This document shows, piece by piece, positions 1,274 to 55,569 of a stretch of 62,197 bases of DNA. The position numbers and the translations under genes were made by a program. Origin of the DNA: an uncultured Siphonobacter sp. (GTDB lineage: Bacteria > Bacteroidota > Bacteroidia > Cytophagales > Spirosomataceae); assembly GCA_913774715.1 (NCBI GenBank), contig CAJYHS010000164.1:1-62197 (forward strand), read 5' to 3'. Under the pieces are notes generated by a model that was given only the letters and a program-made list of their open reading frames with translations, made no database searches and had not been told where the DNA came from. Position 1 is the stretch's first letter, and every line of letters starts with the position of its first letter.

Positions 1274-3034
1274 ATGAAAGGTATACATAAACTCCTATTG
1301 GCGGGCAGTGTAGTAGGTCTGATGACCAGCTGTCAGGACACGCTGGACAAAACAGACCTGGGTTCTACGCCACCAGAACTGATTTACAATGATTCTACGC
1401 TAACAAACCTGAGCCTCAATTACCTCTATGATCAGAATCTACCCAGCTGGGGAGGAACCTGGGGGAACCGCTCGGATTTATCGGATGAATCCTATGGCGA
1501 GAGCAAATATTTTGAAGGAACGATTCAGCCCAACGATGTAGCTGATTTTGGTACGGCTCTGAATAACACCAATAACTATGCTAAAATCCGCCAGCTGAAT
1601 ATGTTTTTGGAAGAAGTAACCCGGGGTAGCATACCGACTTCCAGCAAGAACCGACTCAAAGCTCAGGCTTTGTTTTTCCGGGCCTGGCGGTATTTCGATC
1701 TGGTAAGGCTGTACGGGGGAGTGCCTCTGGTTTTGATTCCTCAGAATGCCGTTGGAGTAGAAGCTAAAGAGGCTACATTCGTGCCTAGAAATTCGACGAC
1801 TGAAACCTATCGCCAGATTGCCGCTGACTTGGATTCGGCCATGCGGTATTTACCTCATACCTGGCCCGCCGCCGAATGGGGACGAATCACGAAGGGAGCG
1901 GCAGCGGCCTTCAAAGCCCGAGTACTGTTATACGCGGCTAGCCCGCAGTTTAACCCTGGCGATGTAGGTAGCAAGTGGCAGGCTGCATATGAGGCAAGTA
2001 CGCAGGCTCAAACCATCTTGACGGCCAGTGGTAGCAAACTTCATGATTCGTTCGACCAGATGTGGTTTCAGGAAGTAAATAACCCAGAAGCTGTTTTCAT
2101 CACGGGCTTTAATACCAATTCTGGTGGTCAGCTTAACAAAAACAACGGGTATGACAACTCGACTCGGCCTTCGTACACGGGCACAGGGGGCGGTTCTAAC
2201 CAGCCTTCCTGGGAAATGGTAAAAGCTTTCCCAATGCTGGACGGAAAGAAACCGGGAGAGTCAGCGAAGTATTCGTATTCAGATACGCTGTTTTATAAAA
2301 ACCGGGATCCACGTTTTGGTAAAACGATTGCTTATAATGGAGCAACCTGGCCCTTGAATGGAAATAACTCGTATCGCCTCTGGACCTATTTTGCCGCAGG
2401 AAAAACAGTTGAGCAAAGAGCCAGCCAGACGGGTTTTTATACTCGAAAAGCCATTAACCCAAGTCTTGGTATTGGTGAAGCTCAATATGCAGGGACGGAC
2501 TGGATGGAAATTCGGTATGCTGAAGTTCTGTTGAACCTGGCTGAAAGTGCCGCCGGAGTTAATCGGATTGATGAAGCTTACACACAGTTAAAAGCCATTC
2601 GGAAACGAGCAGGAATCGAAGCTGGTACGGACGGGAATTATGGATTACAAGCCAATATGACCCGTGCCGAAATGTTTGATGCAATTCTCTATGAACGTCA
2701 GCTTGAATTCGCCTTTGAGGGTAAGCGTTTCTGGGATCTTAGACGTTGGAAGCTTATTGAAAAAACCTTGAATGGAAAACGTAGAAAAGGAGTCATTATC
2801 AATCTGAAGACGACTGGCGTACCTGCTGATTTTGCAACCAATCGTGACAATATCAATCTGGATGAAGCGTATCAGAAATACTTTACGATCACGTTCAAGG
2901 ATATGGACACGCGTTACACGATTAACTGGAGACCTGAGTATTACTTCTTTGCTATTCCGCAACAGGCCATTGATAATAACCCCCAACTGATTCAGAACAA
3001 TACCTGGGGGGGCTCGTTCGACCCGTTGCAGTAA
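1274..3034 (+). CDS. SusD/RagB family nutrient-binding outer membrane lipoprotein
   Basis: 586 residues, a usual length for SusD. The N-terminus is a lipoprotein signal with lipobox GLMTSC around residues 15-20, so the mature protein starts at Cys20 and sits on the outer surface of the outer membrane. Typical SusD landmarks are the TPR-rich N-terminal half (LKAQALFFRAWRYFDLVRLYG near residues 129-149) and the C-terminal AILYERQLEFAFEGKRFWDLRR stretch followed by a poorly conserved tail. SusD binds the glycan and closes the mouth of the SusC barrel encoded immediately upstream. No linked lyase or glycosidase follows within the transcript, because an intrinsic terminator comes next, so this may be a minimal SusCD pair or the end of a locus lying to the left. 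Confidence 0.95.
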   Translation: MKGIHKLLLAGSVVGLMTSCQDTLDKTDLGSTPPELIYNDSTLTNLSLNYLYDQNLPSWGGTWGNRSDLSDESYGESKYFEGTIQPNDVADFGTALNNTNNYAKIRQLNMFLEEVTRGSIPTSSKNRLKAQALFFRAWRYFDLVRLYGGVPLVLIPQNAVGVEAKEATFVPRNSTTETYRQIAADLDSAMRYLPHTWPAAEWGRITKGAAAAFKARVLLYAASPQFNPGDVGSKWQAAYEASTQAQTILTASGSKLHDSFDQMWFQEVNNPEAVFITGFNTNSGGQLNKNNGYDNSTRPSYTGTGGGSNQPSWEMVKAFPMLDGKKPGESAKYSYSDTLFYKNRDPRFGKTIAYNGATWPLNGNNSYRLWTYFAAGKTVEQRASQTGFYTRKAINPSLGIGEAQYAGTDWMEIRYAEVLLNLAESAAGVNRIDEAYTQLKAIRKRAGIEAGTDGNYGLQANMTRAEMFDAILYERQLEFAFEGKRFWDLRRWKLIEKTLNGKRRKGVIINLKTTGVPADFATNRDNINLDEAYQKYFTITFKDMDTRYTINWRPEYYFFAIPQQAIDNNPQLIQNNTWGGSFDPLQ

Positions 3035-41628: not shown

Positions 41629-42864
41629 TTAATACGCGGCCCATTGCATAAGTAGTCCAGTTACATAACCGGCATAGGTACCAATAGCGTATCCTAGTAT
41701 GGCTAATAAAACTCCCACGGGAGCCAGTGAAGGGTGAAAAGCAGCGGCCACTACCGGAGCGGAGGCGGGTCCGCCAATCGCGGCCTGCGACCCTACGGCC
41801 ATAAAGAAAAAGGGAGCTTTGAAGAGTCGGCCCGCTGCAACAATAAAGAGGCCATGAATGAGAATCCAGATGACGCCAACGGCGAAAAGCCCGGGATTAT
41901 CAGCAATGGCCCACAAGTCCATTTTTAGCCCGATGGTAGCAATTAATAGATACAGAAAAACGCTGCCAATTTTAGAAGCTCCCACGTGCTCAAGTTGACG
42001 AACAGGGGTGAAAGAAAGGGTAATGCCTACAATCGTAGCAACGGAAATAATCCAGAAAACCTTAGAGGTTAAACTAAAACGCTCTAGGCCGGGATATTCT
42101 TTCAGAATGGGTACGATGGTATCAGCAAAGGCATGAGCCAGTCCGGTAACTCCCAGGCCAATGGCGATAATCATTACTAAATCCCGAAATTGGGGAATTC
42201 GCTGATGCTGGGCCTGATGGGCTTCCAACTGCACCTGAACTTCGCTAATAGCGGAAGCATCAGCTTTGAAGAGGCGATCAATGGCCAGAGCTTTTCCGGC
42301 TCCGTAAATCATTACGGCCATCCAGAGTTCGGCGACGATGATATCTACCGAAACGCTTTGAGAAAAGATTTTTTCGGAAGGTTTGAAGATCTCTTTCAGG
42401 GCTACCTGATTCGCTCCTCCGCCCGTCCAGCTACCGGCAATGGTAGCCAGTCCTCGCCAGACGGCATCGGCACCTTCACCGCCGACGGTTGCCGGAGAAA
42501 ACTGTTTGACGATCCAGACAGCCATGGGACCGCCAATCATCACGCCCACGATTCCTGCCAGAAAAACCATGACGGTTTTAAACCCGAGTCGCTTCAATGT
42601 TTTCAAATCCATGGACAGGGTAAATAGAACCAGGGTAGCAGGAAGCAGGTATTGCGAAACAACTTTGTAGATCGCAGAGTCATCACCGACCACTTCGGGA
42701 GCAAAGACGCCAGCCGTCGTTAATAAGCCAGGTATGAAGTAACTAAGCAGAACCGGGGGGATAATGTCGTAAAATTTTCGGAGGGAAGGAATCTTAGAGG
42801 TATAAAAGATCAATCCAAGAACTGAACATAAGATGCCTAAAACAACCGCGTAGTTTGATACCAT
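41629..42864 (-). CDS. DUF819 family membrane protein (YjcL type)
   Basis: 411 residues with about ten membrane helices. The DUF819 landmarks are GLLTTAGVFAPE near residue 47, AGIVGVMIGGPMAVWIV near 100, IAGSWTGGGANQVALKEIF near 150, GAGKALAIDR, and the closing GSQAAIGGPASAPVVAAAFHP near 360. The family has the fold of ion-coupled anion or organic-acid transporters (distantly related to gluconate or bile-acid symporters), and no substrate is proven. Its upstream region carries a terminator-like hairpin and a short ORF, so expression may be attenuated. The gene reads toward the GH105 gene with a 77-base gap. Confidence 0.9.
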   Translation of the reverse strand: MVSNYAVVLGILCSVLGLIFYTSKIPSLRKFYDIIPPVLLSYFIPGLLTTAGVFAPEVVGDDSAIYKVVSQYLLPATLVLFTLSMDLKTLKRLGFKTVMVFLAGIVGVMIGGPMAVWIVKQFSPATVGGEGADAVWRGLATIAGSWTGGGANQVALKEIFKPSEKIFSQSVSVDIIVAELWMAVMIYGAGKALAIDRLFKADASAISEVQVQLEAHQAQHQRIPQFRDLVMIIAIGLGVTGLAHAFADTIVPILKEYPGLERFSLTSKVFWIISVATIVGITLSFTPVRQLEHVGASKIGSVFLYLLIATIGLKMDLWAIADNPGLFAVGVIWILIHGLFIVAAGRLFKAPFFFMAVGSQAAIGGPASAPVVAAAFHPSLAPVGVLLAILGYAIGTYAGYVTGLLMQWAAY

Positions 42865-42995: not shown

Positions 42996-43018
42996 CAGAA
43001 TTACACTTCATCAACAAA

Positions 43019-43045
43019 CTAAAAACCAAATAAAACTACTGCCAT
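43019..43045 (-). other. Eight-codon ORF upstream of the hairpin (possible leader peptide)
   Basis: On the minus strand an ATG starts MAVVLFGF followed by TAG, 23 bases before the terminator hairpin. The spacing of short ORF, then hairpin with T run, then gene is that of a translational attenuator. There is no proof of translation. Confidence 0.3.
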
Positions 43046-43072: not shown

Positions 43073-43112
43073 AAAAAAATACTAGGCGGATCAATGACCC
43101 GTAGAAGCCTAG
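43073..43112 (-). terminator. Intrinsic terminator of the tRNA-like RNA
   Basis: CTAGGC/GCCTAG outer arms (43082-43087 and 43107-43112) with an inner GGGTC/GATCC stem, then TATTTTTTT on the minus strand. It lies 35 bases after the 3' end of the tRNA-like fold. Confidence 0.75.
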
Positions 43113-43146: not shown

Positions 43147-43303
43147 CTGTAGGAGAAGGATTCGAACCTCCACGAAGCAGTTAGATACAGCACAAAATTT
43201 GGTGGTCAACCCCAGTCGGACTTGCCCGGCTTTATACTGATTTTTTCCTGGACTCTTCACCCCCGAGACAGGAGGGCATGGCTGCCAATTTCATCACCCT
43301 ACA
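43147..43303 (-). ncRNA. tRNA-like RNA with a giant variable arm
   Basis: Read on the minus strand, the 157 bases form a full cloverleaf. The acceptor TGTAGGG pairs with TCCTACA (7 bp, one G-T). Positions 8-9 are TG. The D arm is ATG/CAT with an AAATTGGCAGC loop containing the invariant GG. The anticodon stem is CCCTC/GGGGG around the loop CTGTCTC (U33 present, apparent anticodon GTC, but T instead of a purine at 37). The T arm is GGAGG-TTCGAAT-CCTTC. The discriminator is G and CCA is not encoded. The variable region is about 86 bases instead of 4-20, closed by GAAGAGT/ACT-G-CTTC, with an inner CAGT..CGG..CCG..ACTG hairpin. The D arm resembles class II (Leu) tRNAs, the anticodon loop tRNA-Asp. 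An exact -7 box is upstream and a terminator downstream, so it is likely expressed. Confidence 0.7.
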
Positions 43304-43334: not shown

Positions 43335-43342
43335 CAAAGGTA
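43335..43342 (-). promoter_or_regulatory. -7 promoter box TACCTTTG for the tRNA-like RNA
   Basis: Exact TAnnTTTG on the minus strand, identical to the octamer in front of rnpB. It starts 31 bases upstream of the mature 5' end, with a TTG about 21 bases further upstream. Confidence 0.7.
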
Positions 43343-43427
43343 ATGTAGGGAAGAGGCGTTTTGCAAGAGTTGTATAAAAATTTTAAAAAATTTACGATAT
43401 TATTAATAATTGGTCTGTATTATTGCT

Positions 43428-43435: not shown

Positions 43436-43453
43436 AATAGAAACGCCAAAGCA

Positions 43454-43933
43454 ATGGATAAAAATTATGAGATTGATAACGTAGACCTGAAGATATTGGG
43501 TTTACTGATGCAGGACGCCACCATGCCTTATACTGAAATTGGTAAAAGAATCTTCGTTTCAGGGGGTACTGTGCACGTTCGGATGCGTAAAATGGAGCAA
43601 ATGGGCATTGTCAAGGGCTCTACTCTAATGATTGATCATACGAAACTAGGCTGGGACATTGCCGCCTTTCTAGGCATATATCTTGATAAAAGTTCTTTGT
43701 ACGCGGAGGTAGCAGAAAAACTAGCCGCTATTCCTGAAGTAGTAAACATTCATTATACCACCGGGATTTATTCCATTTTCGCAAAAATCGTTTGTCGCGA
43801 TACAACCCATTTACGGGAAGTACTGCACGATAAAATTCAGAAAGTCGGCGGAATTCAGCGAACGGAGACCTTTATATCGCTGGAAGAGAGTGTTTCCAGG
43901 CCCGTTCCGTTTGCAGAATCAACAAACGGGTAA
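43454..43933 (+). CDS. Lrp/AsnC family transcriptional regulator
   Basis: 159 residues from the ATG at 43454. The frame opens 31 codons earlier, but those codons span the promoter and are unlike the family. The N-terminal winged helix (NVDLKILGLLMQDATMPYTEIGKRIFVSGGTVHVRMRKM, landmarks LKILGLL and TVHVRMRKME) covers about residues 8-50. The ligand-binding RAM domain follows (VVNIHYTTGIYSIFAKIVCRD near 95-115). Lrp-type regulators respond to amino acids and often act on neighbouring transport or metabolism genes. The divergent DUF819 gene and the tRNA-like RNA are the nearest targets. Confidence 0.93.
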   Translation: MDKNYEIDNVDLKILGLLMQDATMPYTEIGKRIFVSGGTVHVRMRKMEQMGIVKGSTLMIDHTKLGWDIAAFLGIYLDKSSLYAEVAEKLAAIPEVVNIHYTTGIYSIFAKIVCRDTTHLREVLHDKIQKVGGIQRTETFISLEESVSRPVPFAESTNG

Positions 43934-55078: not shown

Positions 55079-55179
55079 GTGCACGTTAATATAGAAAGCG
55101 ATTCCGGTTGAGGAGAATGCTTGACCAGGAGCTACGAATAGCTTTTGAACAGGTTGAACTCACTTCTTTGAAAAAAAAC

Positions 55180-55565
55180 AAGCCGATAAGCCGGGTTCTG
55201 TCATCTTTGCTGTTACACAAAAACGTCTTATCATTTATCTAGGACGTCAGTCACCCGACGCCTCTAACGACCTACCCACCAGCACCGGACGAGCAGCCCT
55301 TCGACCCTTTCGGATACCACTGGTTTATTTGGTCTTTCAGCCCGTGAGGTTTGCCCTGCCTCCTTTGTCACCAAAGGAGCGGTAGGCTCTTACCCTACCT
55401 TTTCACCCTTACTCTTCCGAGGAAAAGCGGTATATTCTCTGTGGTACTAGCTGTCAGCTAACCGTCACCAGTTAACTGCCTACCCGTTAGGTAGCACGGT
55501 GCTCTACGCTGCCCGGACTTTCCTCTTTCTTCAGTTAAAAAAGAAAGCGATAAGATGGCTTGCTG
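55180..55565 (-). ncRNA. rnpB: RNase P RNA (class A)
   Basis: Read on the minus strand. The universally conserved P4 block GAGGAAAGTCCGGGC lies near 55510-55530, and the complementary 3' element ACAGAACCCGGCTTAT lies near 55188-55205. In between are the expected CTAACGGGTAGGC, GGTGACGG and AAGGGTGAAAAGGT loops. The 3' end runs into eight Ts, and an exact -7 box precedes the 5' end. The ends are given to within about ten bases. The RNA is the catalytic subunit of tRNA 5' processing. Confidence 0.95.
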
Positions 55566-55569
55566 CCTA

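Follow-up and report, generated by a model that had tools for sequence, protein, structure and literature searches.

The window analysed here is a stretch of 62,197 nucleotides from the genome of an uncultured Siphonobacter sp. (contig CAJYHS010000164.1), and its minus strand encodes an RNA that combines the cloverleaf of a tRNA with a very long variable region. Which task could such an RNA fulfil? The initial annotation had considered a true tRNA with an odd extension, a tRNA-derived regulatory RNA and a domesticated tRNA with a new job, and it is the last of these alternatives that our evidence favours. The minus-strand cloverleaf was confirmed with exact ends, 43303 being U1 and 43147 being G73. 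All four arms pair as initially described, with seven base pairs in the acceptor stem (U1-A72 through G7-U66), three in the D stem and five each in the anticodon arm and in the T arm, the latter with a TTCGAAT loop. The elements of the RNA and of its immediate surroundings are as follows.

43147–43303, minus strand: tRNA-like RNA from U1 to the discriminator G73, based on sequence, BLAST, covariation and a covariance model
43297–43303, minus strand: 5' strand of the acceptor stem, UGUAGGG; U1, G2 and U3 are invariant in 101 cellular members
43148–43154, minus strand: 3' strand of the acceptor stem, UCCUACA, paired with 43297–43303
43278–43294, minus strand: D arm of the Leu type, AUG...CAU, with GGCAG in the loop; position 20a is A, not U
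43260–43276, minus strand: anticodon arm CCCUC-CUGUCUC-GGGGG with a 5-bp stem; G34, U35 and C36 at 43269–43267, U37 at 43266, C38 at 43265
43172–43259, minus strand: variable region of 88 nt; it includes a covarying inner stem and a hairpin at the centre
43258–43255 with 43177–43174, minus strand: variable-region stem GAAG/CTTC, conserved and covarying
43250–43248 with 43180–43178, minus strand: variable-region stem CAG/CTG
43155–43171, minus strand: T arm GGAGG-TTCGAAT-CCTTC, 5-bp stem, intact in the window; one or two extra nucleotides in many relatives
43335–43366, minus strand: promoter-like pair found by eye, −33 TTGC (43366–43363) and −7 TACCTTTG (43342–43335)
43073–43112, minus strand: intrinsic terminator-like hairpin CTAGGC...GCCTAG (43112–43082) followed by a T run, found by eye

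The variable region had been estimated at about 86 nt and described as closed by the stem GAAGAGT/ACTGCTTC. A long region is present, of 88 nt, and the GAAG/CTTC part of the stem is conserved and covaries; relatives such as L004 and L012 do not maintain the AGT/ACT pairing, and CAG pairs with CTG in another register. In the family as a whole the region runs from the covarying stem (GAAG/CTTC in the window) through an asymmetric loop, a second covarying stem (CAG/CTG) and an internal loop, which by eye has GATAAA opposite CTAA in most members, to a third stem and lineage-specific hairpins. The length of 101 unique members ranges from 76 to 195 nt. The class II, Leu-like D arm, the G discriminator without an encoded CCA, and an anticodon loop that differs from that of tRNA-Asp at position 37 only had all been recognised correctly. 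The missing CCA means little because several ordinary tRNA genes of the same genome also appear without it; the encoded base 3' of G73 is C in every member in which this base was read. The promoter and terminator that had been proposed for the RNA have candidates at 43335–43366 and 43073–43112, and we take the TTGC/TACCTTTG pair to fit the −33/−7 promoter consensus of Bacteroidota. Promoter-like pairs of a similar kind, again by eye, precede the RNA in many relatives.

Neither ARAGORN nor Rfam recognises the locus. ARAGORN, one of the proposed checks, found neither a tRNA nor a tmRNA gene in the window, and Rfam at gathering thresholds gave no match at the RNA locus; at E≤10 only two weak and implausible matches (E 3.4 and 8.4), far below the gathering scores, appeared in its vicinity. 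The canonical tRNA family RF00005 had no match in the window and none at E≤10 around the locus. We rejected a tmRNA, for which neither an Rfam match at the locus nor an ARAGORN gene was obtained and with which the full anticodon arm does not agree, and also a tRNA interrupted by a group I intron: as the initial annotation had stated, a group I core is absent, with no Rfam intron match at E≤10, and 88 nt are too short for one. Elsewhere in the window, Rfam identifies a bacterial class A RNase P RNA (RF00010, 287 bits) at 55171–55566 on the minus strand. The folding energy of the single sequence does not stand out (z −0.41); the best fold, in which the D and anticodon arms are wrongly paired, was dropped for the covariation analysis, and the structure was specified by hand because RNAalifold also misfolded these two arms.

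Evidence that the structure is real comes from its relatives. In its own genome and 58 related genomes, BLAST detects the RNA in 45/59 and a covariance model in 46/59, and the latter count is used throughout; it corresponds to 47/59 genomes at E≤1e-14 minus G038, whose match is a tRNA-Leu, and it includes G049, where the RNA is present as half genes at contig ends. In an alignment of 38 sequences, 94.1% of the cells are paired and 21 of the 35 pairs show two-sided changes; none of 500 shuffles matches these values, and sliding the pairs abolishes the signal. The corresponding values for 80 distinct rows aligned by the covariance model are 95.3% and 30 of 35 pairs, to be read with the fact that this alignment was fitted to the structure and includes one tRNA-Leu, one truncated copy and two fragments. 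Lack of conservation or membership in a known ncRNA family would have been arguments against a novel RNA; the strong covariation, the occurrence in 46 genomes and the absence of an Rfam match at the locus at gathering thresholds point the other way. We found no description of the family in open-licence PubMed Central papers, and we regard it as practically certain that the tRNA-like RNA represents a real and hitherto undescribed RNA family.

The family extends well beyond these relatives. An even sample of the phylum yielded the RNA in 41/395 genomes, a tally of covariance-model matches at E<1e-17 only, because matches of about 60 bits or lower were taken as ordinary class II tRNAs; the only two of the latter that were fetched (L119 and L168) are both tRNA-Leu according to ARAGORN. 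Among the core-pattern matches listed, 116 of 120 named genome contigs carry the RNA, the exceptions being three actinobacteria and one Polyangiaceae bin (L182, L191, L238, L258). Named carriers belong to the orders Cytophagales, Chitinophagales and Sphingobacteriales and range from Spirosoma, Dyadobacter, Hymenobacter, Pontibacter, Algoriphagus, Cyclobacterium and Fulvivirga through Chitinophaga, Niabella and Saprospiraceae to Pedobacter, Mucilaginibacter and Sphingobacterium, among others. A contig labelled as an Ignavibacteriales MAG (L186) has the RNA next to an AsnC gene; mislabelling or contamination of the bin may account for this. The RNA is present once in many genomes and two to five times in others, where tandem arrangements are frequent. 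Loci with three to five copies and diverged variable regions are found in L284 (312–1052), L259 (42–466) and G056, the last with three copies in L044 (2909–3481), a fourth in L046 (2909–3038) and G at position 33. In L084, two variable-region segments without a full tRNA body (975–1042 and 1293–1360, minus strand) lie 3' of a full copy within longer direct repeats. A 76-nt member of G047 (L118, 2001–2076, minus strand) is devoid of the long variable arm and keeps U1-A72, G73 and the loop CUAUCUC; ARAGORN reads it as tRNA-Asp(atc).

The positions that do not vary are the most informative ones. They were determined in 101 unique members from the BLAST- and covariance-model-selected sets, after removal of duplicates, one truncated copy, one tRNA-Leu and two fragments. 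Named and viral loci fetched by pattern were excluded for positions 35, 36 and 38 because the search pattern fixed them, and position statistics based on regular expressions were set aside altogether, several positions being fixed by construction. U1-A72, G2-C71, U3-A70, G73, U35, C36 and C38 are kept in 101/101 members. Positions 20/20a/20b read CAG in 100 members and UAG in one, and G34 is present in 95/101, otherwise being A, C or U. Features on which decoding depends are less constant: position 33 is U in 86/101 members, including the window RNA, position 37 is a pyrimidine in 97 (U37 in the window) and a purine in only 4, and the T stem, which EF-Tu contacts, has an insertion of 1–2 nt in 21/38 aligned members, read as a bulge because perfect pairing in L027 and L045 requires a bulge of two bases. 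These values speak against a true tRNA with an odd extension, and judged by its sequence the RNA very probably does not decode.

The same positions suggest which enzymes might recognise it. In E. coli AspRS, G1-C72 contributes to the positioning of the acceptor end; in the family this pair is replaced by U1-A72 in 101/101 members. The genome's own tRNA-Asp has the form GGU...ACC-G73 with the loop CUGUCAC, and therefore the first three pairs of the RNA are those of tRNA-Asp with pair 1 exchanged. As reported in PMC9976931, the strong Asp determinants are G73, G34, U35, C36 and C38, with a minor contribution of the second pair, and the window RNA has all of these as well as G2-C71. The same source gives U1-A72 as the feature that confers amidation of Asp-tRNA-Asn, prevented in tRNA-Asp by G1-C72 and U20a, and U1-A72 is named as an amidation determinant in PMC4206432 too. 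By these published features the window RNA would be a GatCAB substrate: U1-A72 is present, G1-C72 and U20a are absent. The missing U20a carries little weight because the tRNA-Asn of this genome also seems to have U20a (GGTTA). In 28 tRNA rows of the genome (25 differing apart from the 3' end), obtained from 30 loci fetched out of 50 matches and not including tRNA-Gln, only tRNA-Asn starts with U. The RNA can thus be inferred to be a hybrid that would combine the AspRS determinants of tRNA-Asp with the GatCAB determinant of tRNA-Asn.

A link to asparagine is also provided by the neighbouring gene, which is divergent from the RNA at a distance of 144 bp.

43448–43933, plus strand: AsnC-type transcriptional regulator, divergent from the RNA; the open reading frame is listed from TTG 43361, the ATG start is at 43448
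43373–43394, minus strand: candidate operator TAAATTTTNNNAAATTTTTATR, AT-rich, in the intergenic region between the regulator and the RNA

AsnC is the best NCBIfam family for the regulator of the window (162 bits against a cut-off of 227; Lrp 47) and for all 11 regulators scanned, the ten others, from distant lineages, reaching 154–196 bits, all below the 227-bit cut-off; E. coli-type Lrp scores at most 59 bits. The best solved structure for the window regulator is E. coli AsnC (2cg4). An AsnC ortholog (E<1e-50) is present in 45/46 genomes with the RNA and in 1/13 without it (Fisher 1.5e-10, with no phylogenetic correction), G038 with an AsnC-like protein at 1.8e-44 being counted as lacking one; the discordant genomes are G041, with the RNA and no AsnC, and G051, with AsnC and no RNA. 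The gene adjoins and diverges from the RNA in 42/46 genomes, the exceptions being G041, G047, G053 and G056. At the 116 named loci listed, an adjoining divergent AsnC gene is found in 77; 11 are too short to tell, and 28 have enough room, yet no adjoining AsnC. The operator pattern TAAATTTTNNNAAATTTTTATR has 13 matches in 39 genomes, of which 9 are at the RNA/AsnC locus; since control patterns gave 8 matches the number alone is weak, and the evidence lies in the position.

GatB, AsnA and AsnB were surveyed in the 59 genomes. GatB occurs in 46/46 genomes with the RNA and in 10/13 without, which is weak evidence because GatB is nearly universal in the genomes surveyed. Neither AsnA nor AsnB over the cut-off was found in the genome of the window, and AsnB over the cut-off is also absent from five genus mates, the best matches in these six being below 50 bits; AsnA over the cut-off occurs in only 1/59 genomes (G047), with G045 just below. 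Altogether 22/46 genomes with the RNA have neither synthetase over the cut-off. In 15 of these 22 the best AsnB-like match is below 60 bits, and the other seven have sub-threshold relatives of 110–262 bits, that of G015 in pieces in a fragmented assembly. Both enzymes are likewise missing over the cut-off in 6/13 genomes without the RNA, namely two with the gene fusion described below, one that is 66% complete, two of 1.1–1.6 Mb, and G014, which has GatB. We had expected AsnB to be anticorrelated with the RNA; this was not found (24/46 with and 7/13 without the RNA, p = 1.0), which would make the route redundant for half of these genomes.

Taken together, the task of the RNA probably lies in aspartate/asparagine metabolism. 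More specifically, and at about an even chance, we propose that it is a dedicated carrier RNA that would be charged by AspRS, amidated by GatCAB and used to supply asparagine under the control of AsnC. The divergent promoter would be controlled by the AsnC-type regulator, which presumably senses asparagine, and the transcript would be trimmed like a tRNA and receive its CCA. AspRS would then recognise the Asp-type loop (U35, C36, C38 and usually G34) together with G73 and load aspartate, and GatCAB would recognise U1-A72 and the lack of G1-C72 and amidate the aspartate to asparagine. Release, probably by deacylation, would make asparagine available to AsnRS and for other uses; we assume release because the RNA should be unable to serve the ribosome, given its variable positions 33 and 34, the pyrimidine at 37, the altered T stem of many members and the bulky variable arm. 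Several observations count against such a carrier. Of the 101 members, 6 have lost G34, which is a strong Asp determinant in bacteria, and none has G1-C72; the mechanism has no need of the most conspicuous feature of the RNA, its large variable arm, and the compact member of G047 does without it; and many viral copies are near tRNA genes, which normally serve translation. The discordant genomes G041 and G051, the 28 named loci with room for an adjoining AsnC gene but none present, and G014 count on the same side.

The region 3' of the RNA bears on the proposed carrier function as well.

43001–43027, minus strand: C-free ultraconserved element of 27 nt, GGTTTTTAGTTTGTTGATGAAGTGTAA, 3' of the RNA; a lineage-specific add-on
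41629–42864, minus strand: DUF819 membrane protein (Pfam), 3' of the RNA

The element is followed by a second terminator-like hairpin at about 42996–42961; it occurs in 37/59 genomes, in 34 of them identically, and it follows the RNA in 34 genomes. It is possibly a small RNA; a search of its own genome for antisense partners with up to three mismatches detected nothing but the element. The RNA is located elsewhere in G056 and G053, and in these two a different C-free stretch adjoins AsnC. DUF819, which could be a transporter, is a frequent neighbour of the RNA in this bacterial family, i.e. in one lineage; an assignment of this neighbour as GltS was rejected, as Pfam gives DUF819. Three genomes (G019, G024, G025) lack both the RNA and the AsnC ortholog and have, 5' of the shared C-free element, gatA followed by a gene of about 1105 codons for a GatB-AspRS fusion (GatB at residues 16–477, AspRS at 515–1105; loci L296 2534–7270, L297 2754–7492 and L298 1922–5957). 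The fusion, whose gene is split across two contigs in G019, is the only GatB match in these genomes, and the element behind it has its own promoter-like sequence. The next gene in G024 is DUF819, which in G019 is located on the contig bearing the element. The best PDB match of the fused AspRS is the non-discriminating enzyme of P. aeruginosa (4wj3). All three have His at position 31 of the AspRS part, which we take to be a discrimination residue; a check of a second such residue was dropped because it did not align at the expected place. Related genomes thus have, 5' of one shared element, the RNA with its AsnC neighbour or else enzymes expected to convert aspartate into asparagine on a tRNA.

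The RNA is also encoded by viruses. At least 120 loci on uncultured viral contigs match its core pattern, and of 80 examined, 74 have a match of at least 74 bits, two have a match cut by a contig or locus end (L360, L331) and four have none. The viral copies are more diverged: U1, A72 and G73 are present in 65/65 unique sequences and pair 2 in 64, and pair 3 drifts, with U-A (the TGT...ACA form) in 59/65. Many are near tRNA genes, some in arrays, and compact relatives of 90–95 nt (L325, L345, L340, L372, L333) have a tRNA-Asp(gtc) gene no more than 3 kb away. Ten proteins from six viral contigs include matches to terminase, portal, PhoH, DNA polymerase, ligase and chaperonin; because terminase, portal, PhoH and polymerase genes are close to the RNA in several of these contigs, we regard the copies as phage copies and not as host junctions. 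No AsnC gene was detected in the 80 viral loci examined. Records of cultured phages had no match for the window RNA or for one viral copy, and plasmid records had none for the window RNA. That several Bacteroidota orders and some of their phages make asparagine on a dedicated, non-decoding, AsnC-controlled hybrid RNA, which phages would carry as an auxiliary metabolic RNA, is a tentative proposal that we hold at somewhat below even chance.

Other functions have to be weighed against a carrier role. An unusual tRNA-Asp that decodes GAC/GAU despite its very long variable arm would account for the anticodon GUC of most members, for the many viral copies near tRNA genes and for the ARAGORN call of the compact L118. 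We nevertheless consider it very improbable: U33 is not conserved, position 34 can be any base, position 37 is nearly always a pyrimidine, T-stem insertions are common, the genome already has two ordinary tRNA-Asp genes, and U1-A72 combined with an Asp anticodon would risk misincorporation of Asn at Asp codons. That the RNA is the relic of a tRNA, retained because mobile elements integrate there, is hardly credible at all, since compensatory changes throughout the structure contradict it and the divergent AsnC gene is conserved; tRNA genes are common integration sites, and the RNA does occur on viral contigs, but no AsnC was detected in the viral loci examined and phage genes surround the RNA in several of the six contigs sampled.

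Two rivals retain a role in aspartate/asparagine metabolism. As a regulatory decoy, the RNA would mimic tRNA-Asp or tRNA-Asn and tune this metabolism through binding to AspRS, to GatCAB or to the AsnC protein, without acting as a productive carrier. Such a function would agree with the linked regulator gene, with the size of the variable arm and with the fact that some members have lost G34 or U33. Full retention of the first three acceptor pairs, of G73 and of the Asp and amidation determinants seems to exceed what binding calls for, and the GatB-AspRS fusion at the place where the RNA would be points to catalysis, so that a decoy appears unlikely. Its precedent is a pseudo-tRNA of B. cereus, whose deletion altered the expression of many genes (PMC3399842). 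Alternatively, the same AspRS/GatCAB chemistry, with the same identity evidence behind it, could produce an asparaginyl donor from which a putative transferase would pass Asn or Asp to a peptide, a lipid or an envelope component. Viruses that carry the RNA could need such a product, and the dedicated non-decoding tRNAs that staphylococci employ in cell-wall synthesis offer a precedent. We rate a donor as quite improbable, as no transferase stood out: at the 28 named loci without an adjoining AsnC the two nearest reading frames on each side are mixed, as judged by eye and by blastp clustering, and DUF819 is a neighbour in one lineage.

If the carrier reading is true, a widespread class of RNA absent from Rfam and missed by ARAGORN would, to our knowledge, be the first RNA dedicated to the production of a free amino acid and not to translation. 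It would suggest a route to asparagine for bacteria that have GatCAB and neither asparagine synthetase, even if their AspRS is discriminating, and GatCAB would gain a substrate outside translation. Control of amino acid synthesis by a transcription factor would extend to a carrier RNA, which would occupy the place that an asparagine synthetase gene has in other bacteria, and the phage copies would represent a new kind of auxiliary gene.

We know of no RNA class with the make-up of the tRNA-like RNA, nor of any in Rfam. Bacterial Y RNAs (YrlA) contain a tRNA-like module and need Ro60/Rsr; this assignment was rejected since Ro60/Rsr (TROVE) was not found in the genome of the window (G000) and was found in only 11/59 genomes, and since no Rfam match was obtained. 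Synthesis of Asn on tRNA in a transamidosome takes place in Bdellovibrio, Deinococcus and Thermus. The proposed chemistry is a variant of this known tRNA-dependent amidation; what is new is the make-up of the RNA. With tRNA-Asn, the substrate of AspRS and GatCAB, it shares U1-A72, G73 and the lack of G1-C72, but it has an Asp-type loop with U35, C36 and C38 in place of GUU, a class II body and a long variable domain, is apparently non-decoding and is linked to AsnC. The genomic setting, GatB without AsnA or AsnB over the cut-off, is much like that of 18 genera including Bacteroidetes (PMC4206432). tRNAOther, the pseudo-tRNA of Bacillus cereus, is also tRNA-like, without a function in translation and linked to regulation, but it belongs to a longer iron-responsive RNA that adjoins a genomic island; a wide family, a link to AsnC and a long variable arm are not described for it in the abstract of PMC3399842. 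The tRNA-Asp of the same genome has the same loop except for position 37 and has G2-C71, U3-A70 and G73 in common with the RNA, which differs by U1-A72 instead of G1-C72, A20a instead of U20a, the pyrimidine at 37, the long variable arm and the Leu-type D arm. In E. coli, asnC and asnA form a divergent pair, and as there, an AsnC-type regulator here diverges from its presumed target; the target in E. coli is asparagine synthetase A, whereas in the Siphonobacter genome it would be an RNA, occupying the place of asnA beside asnC.
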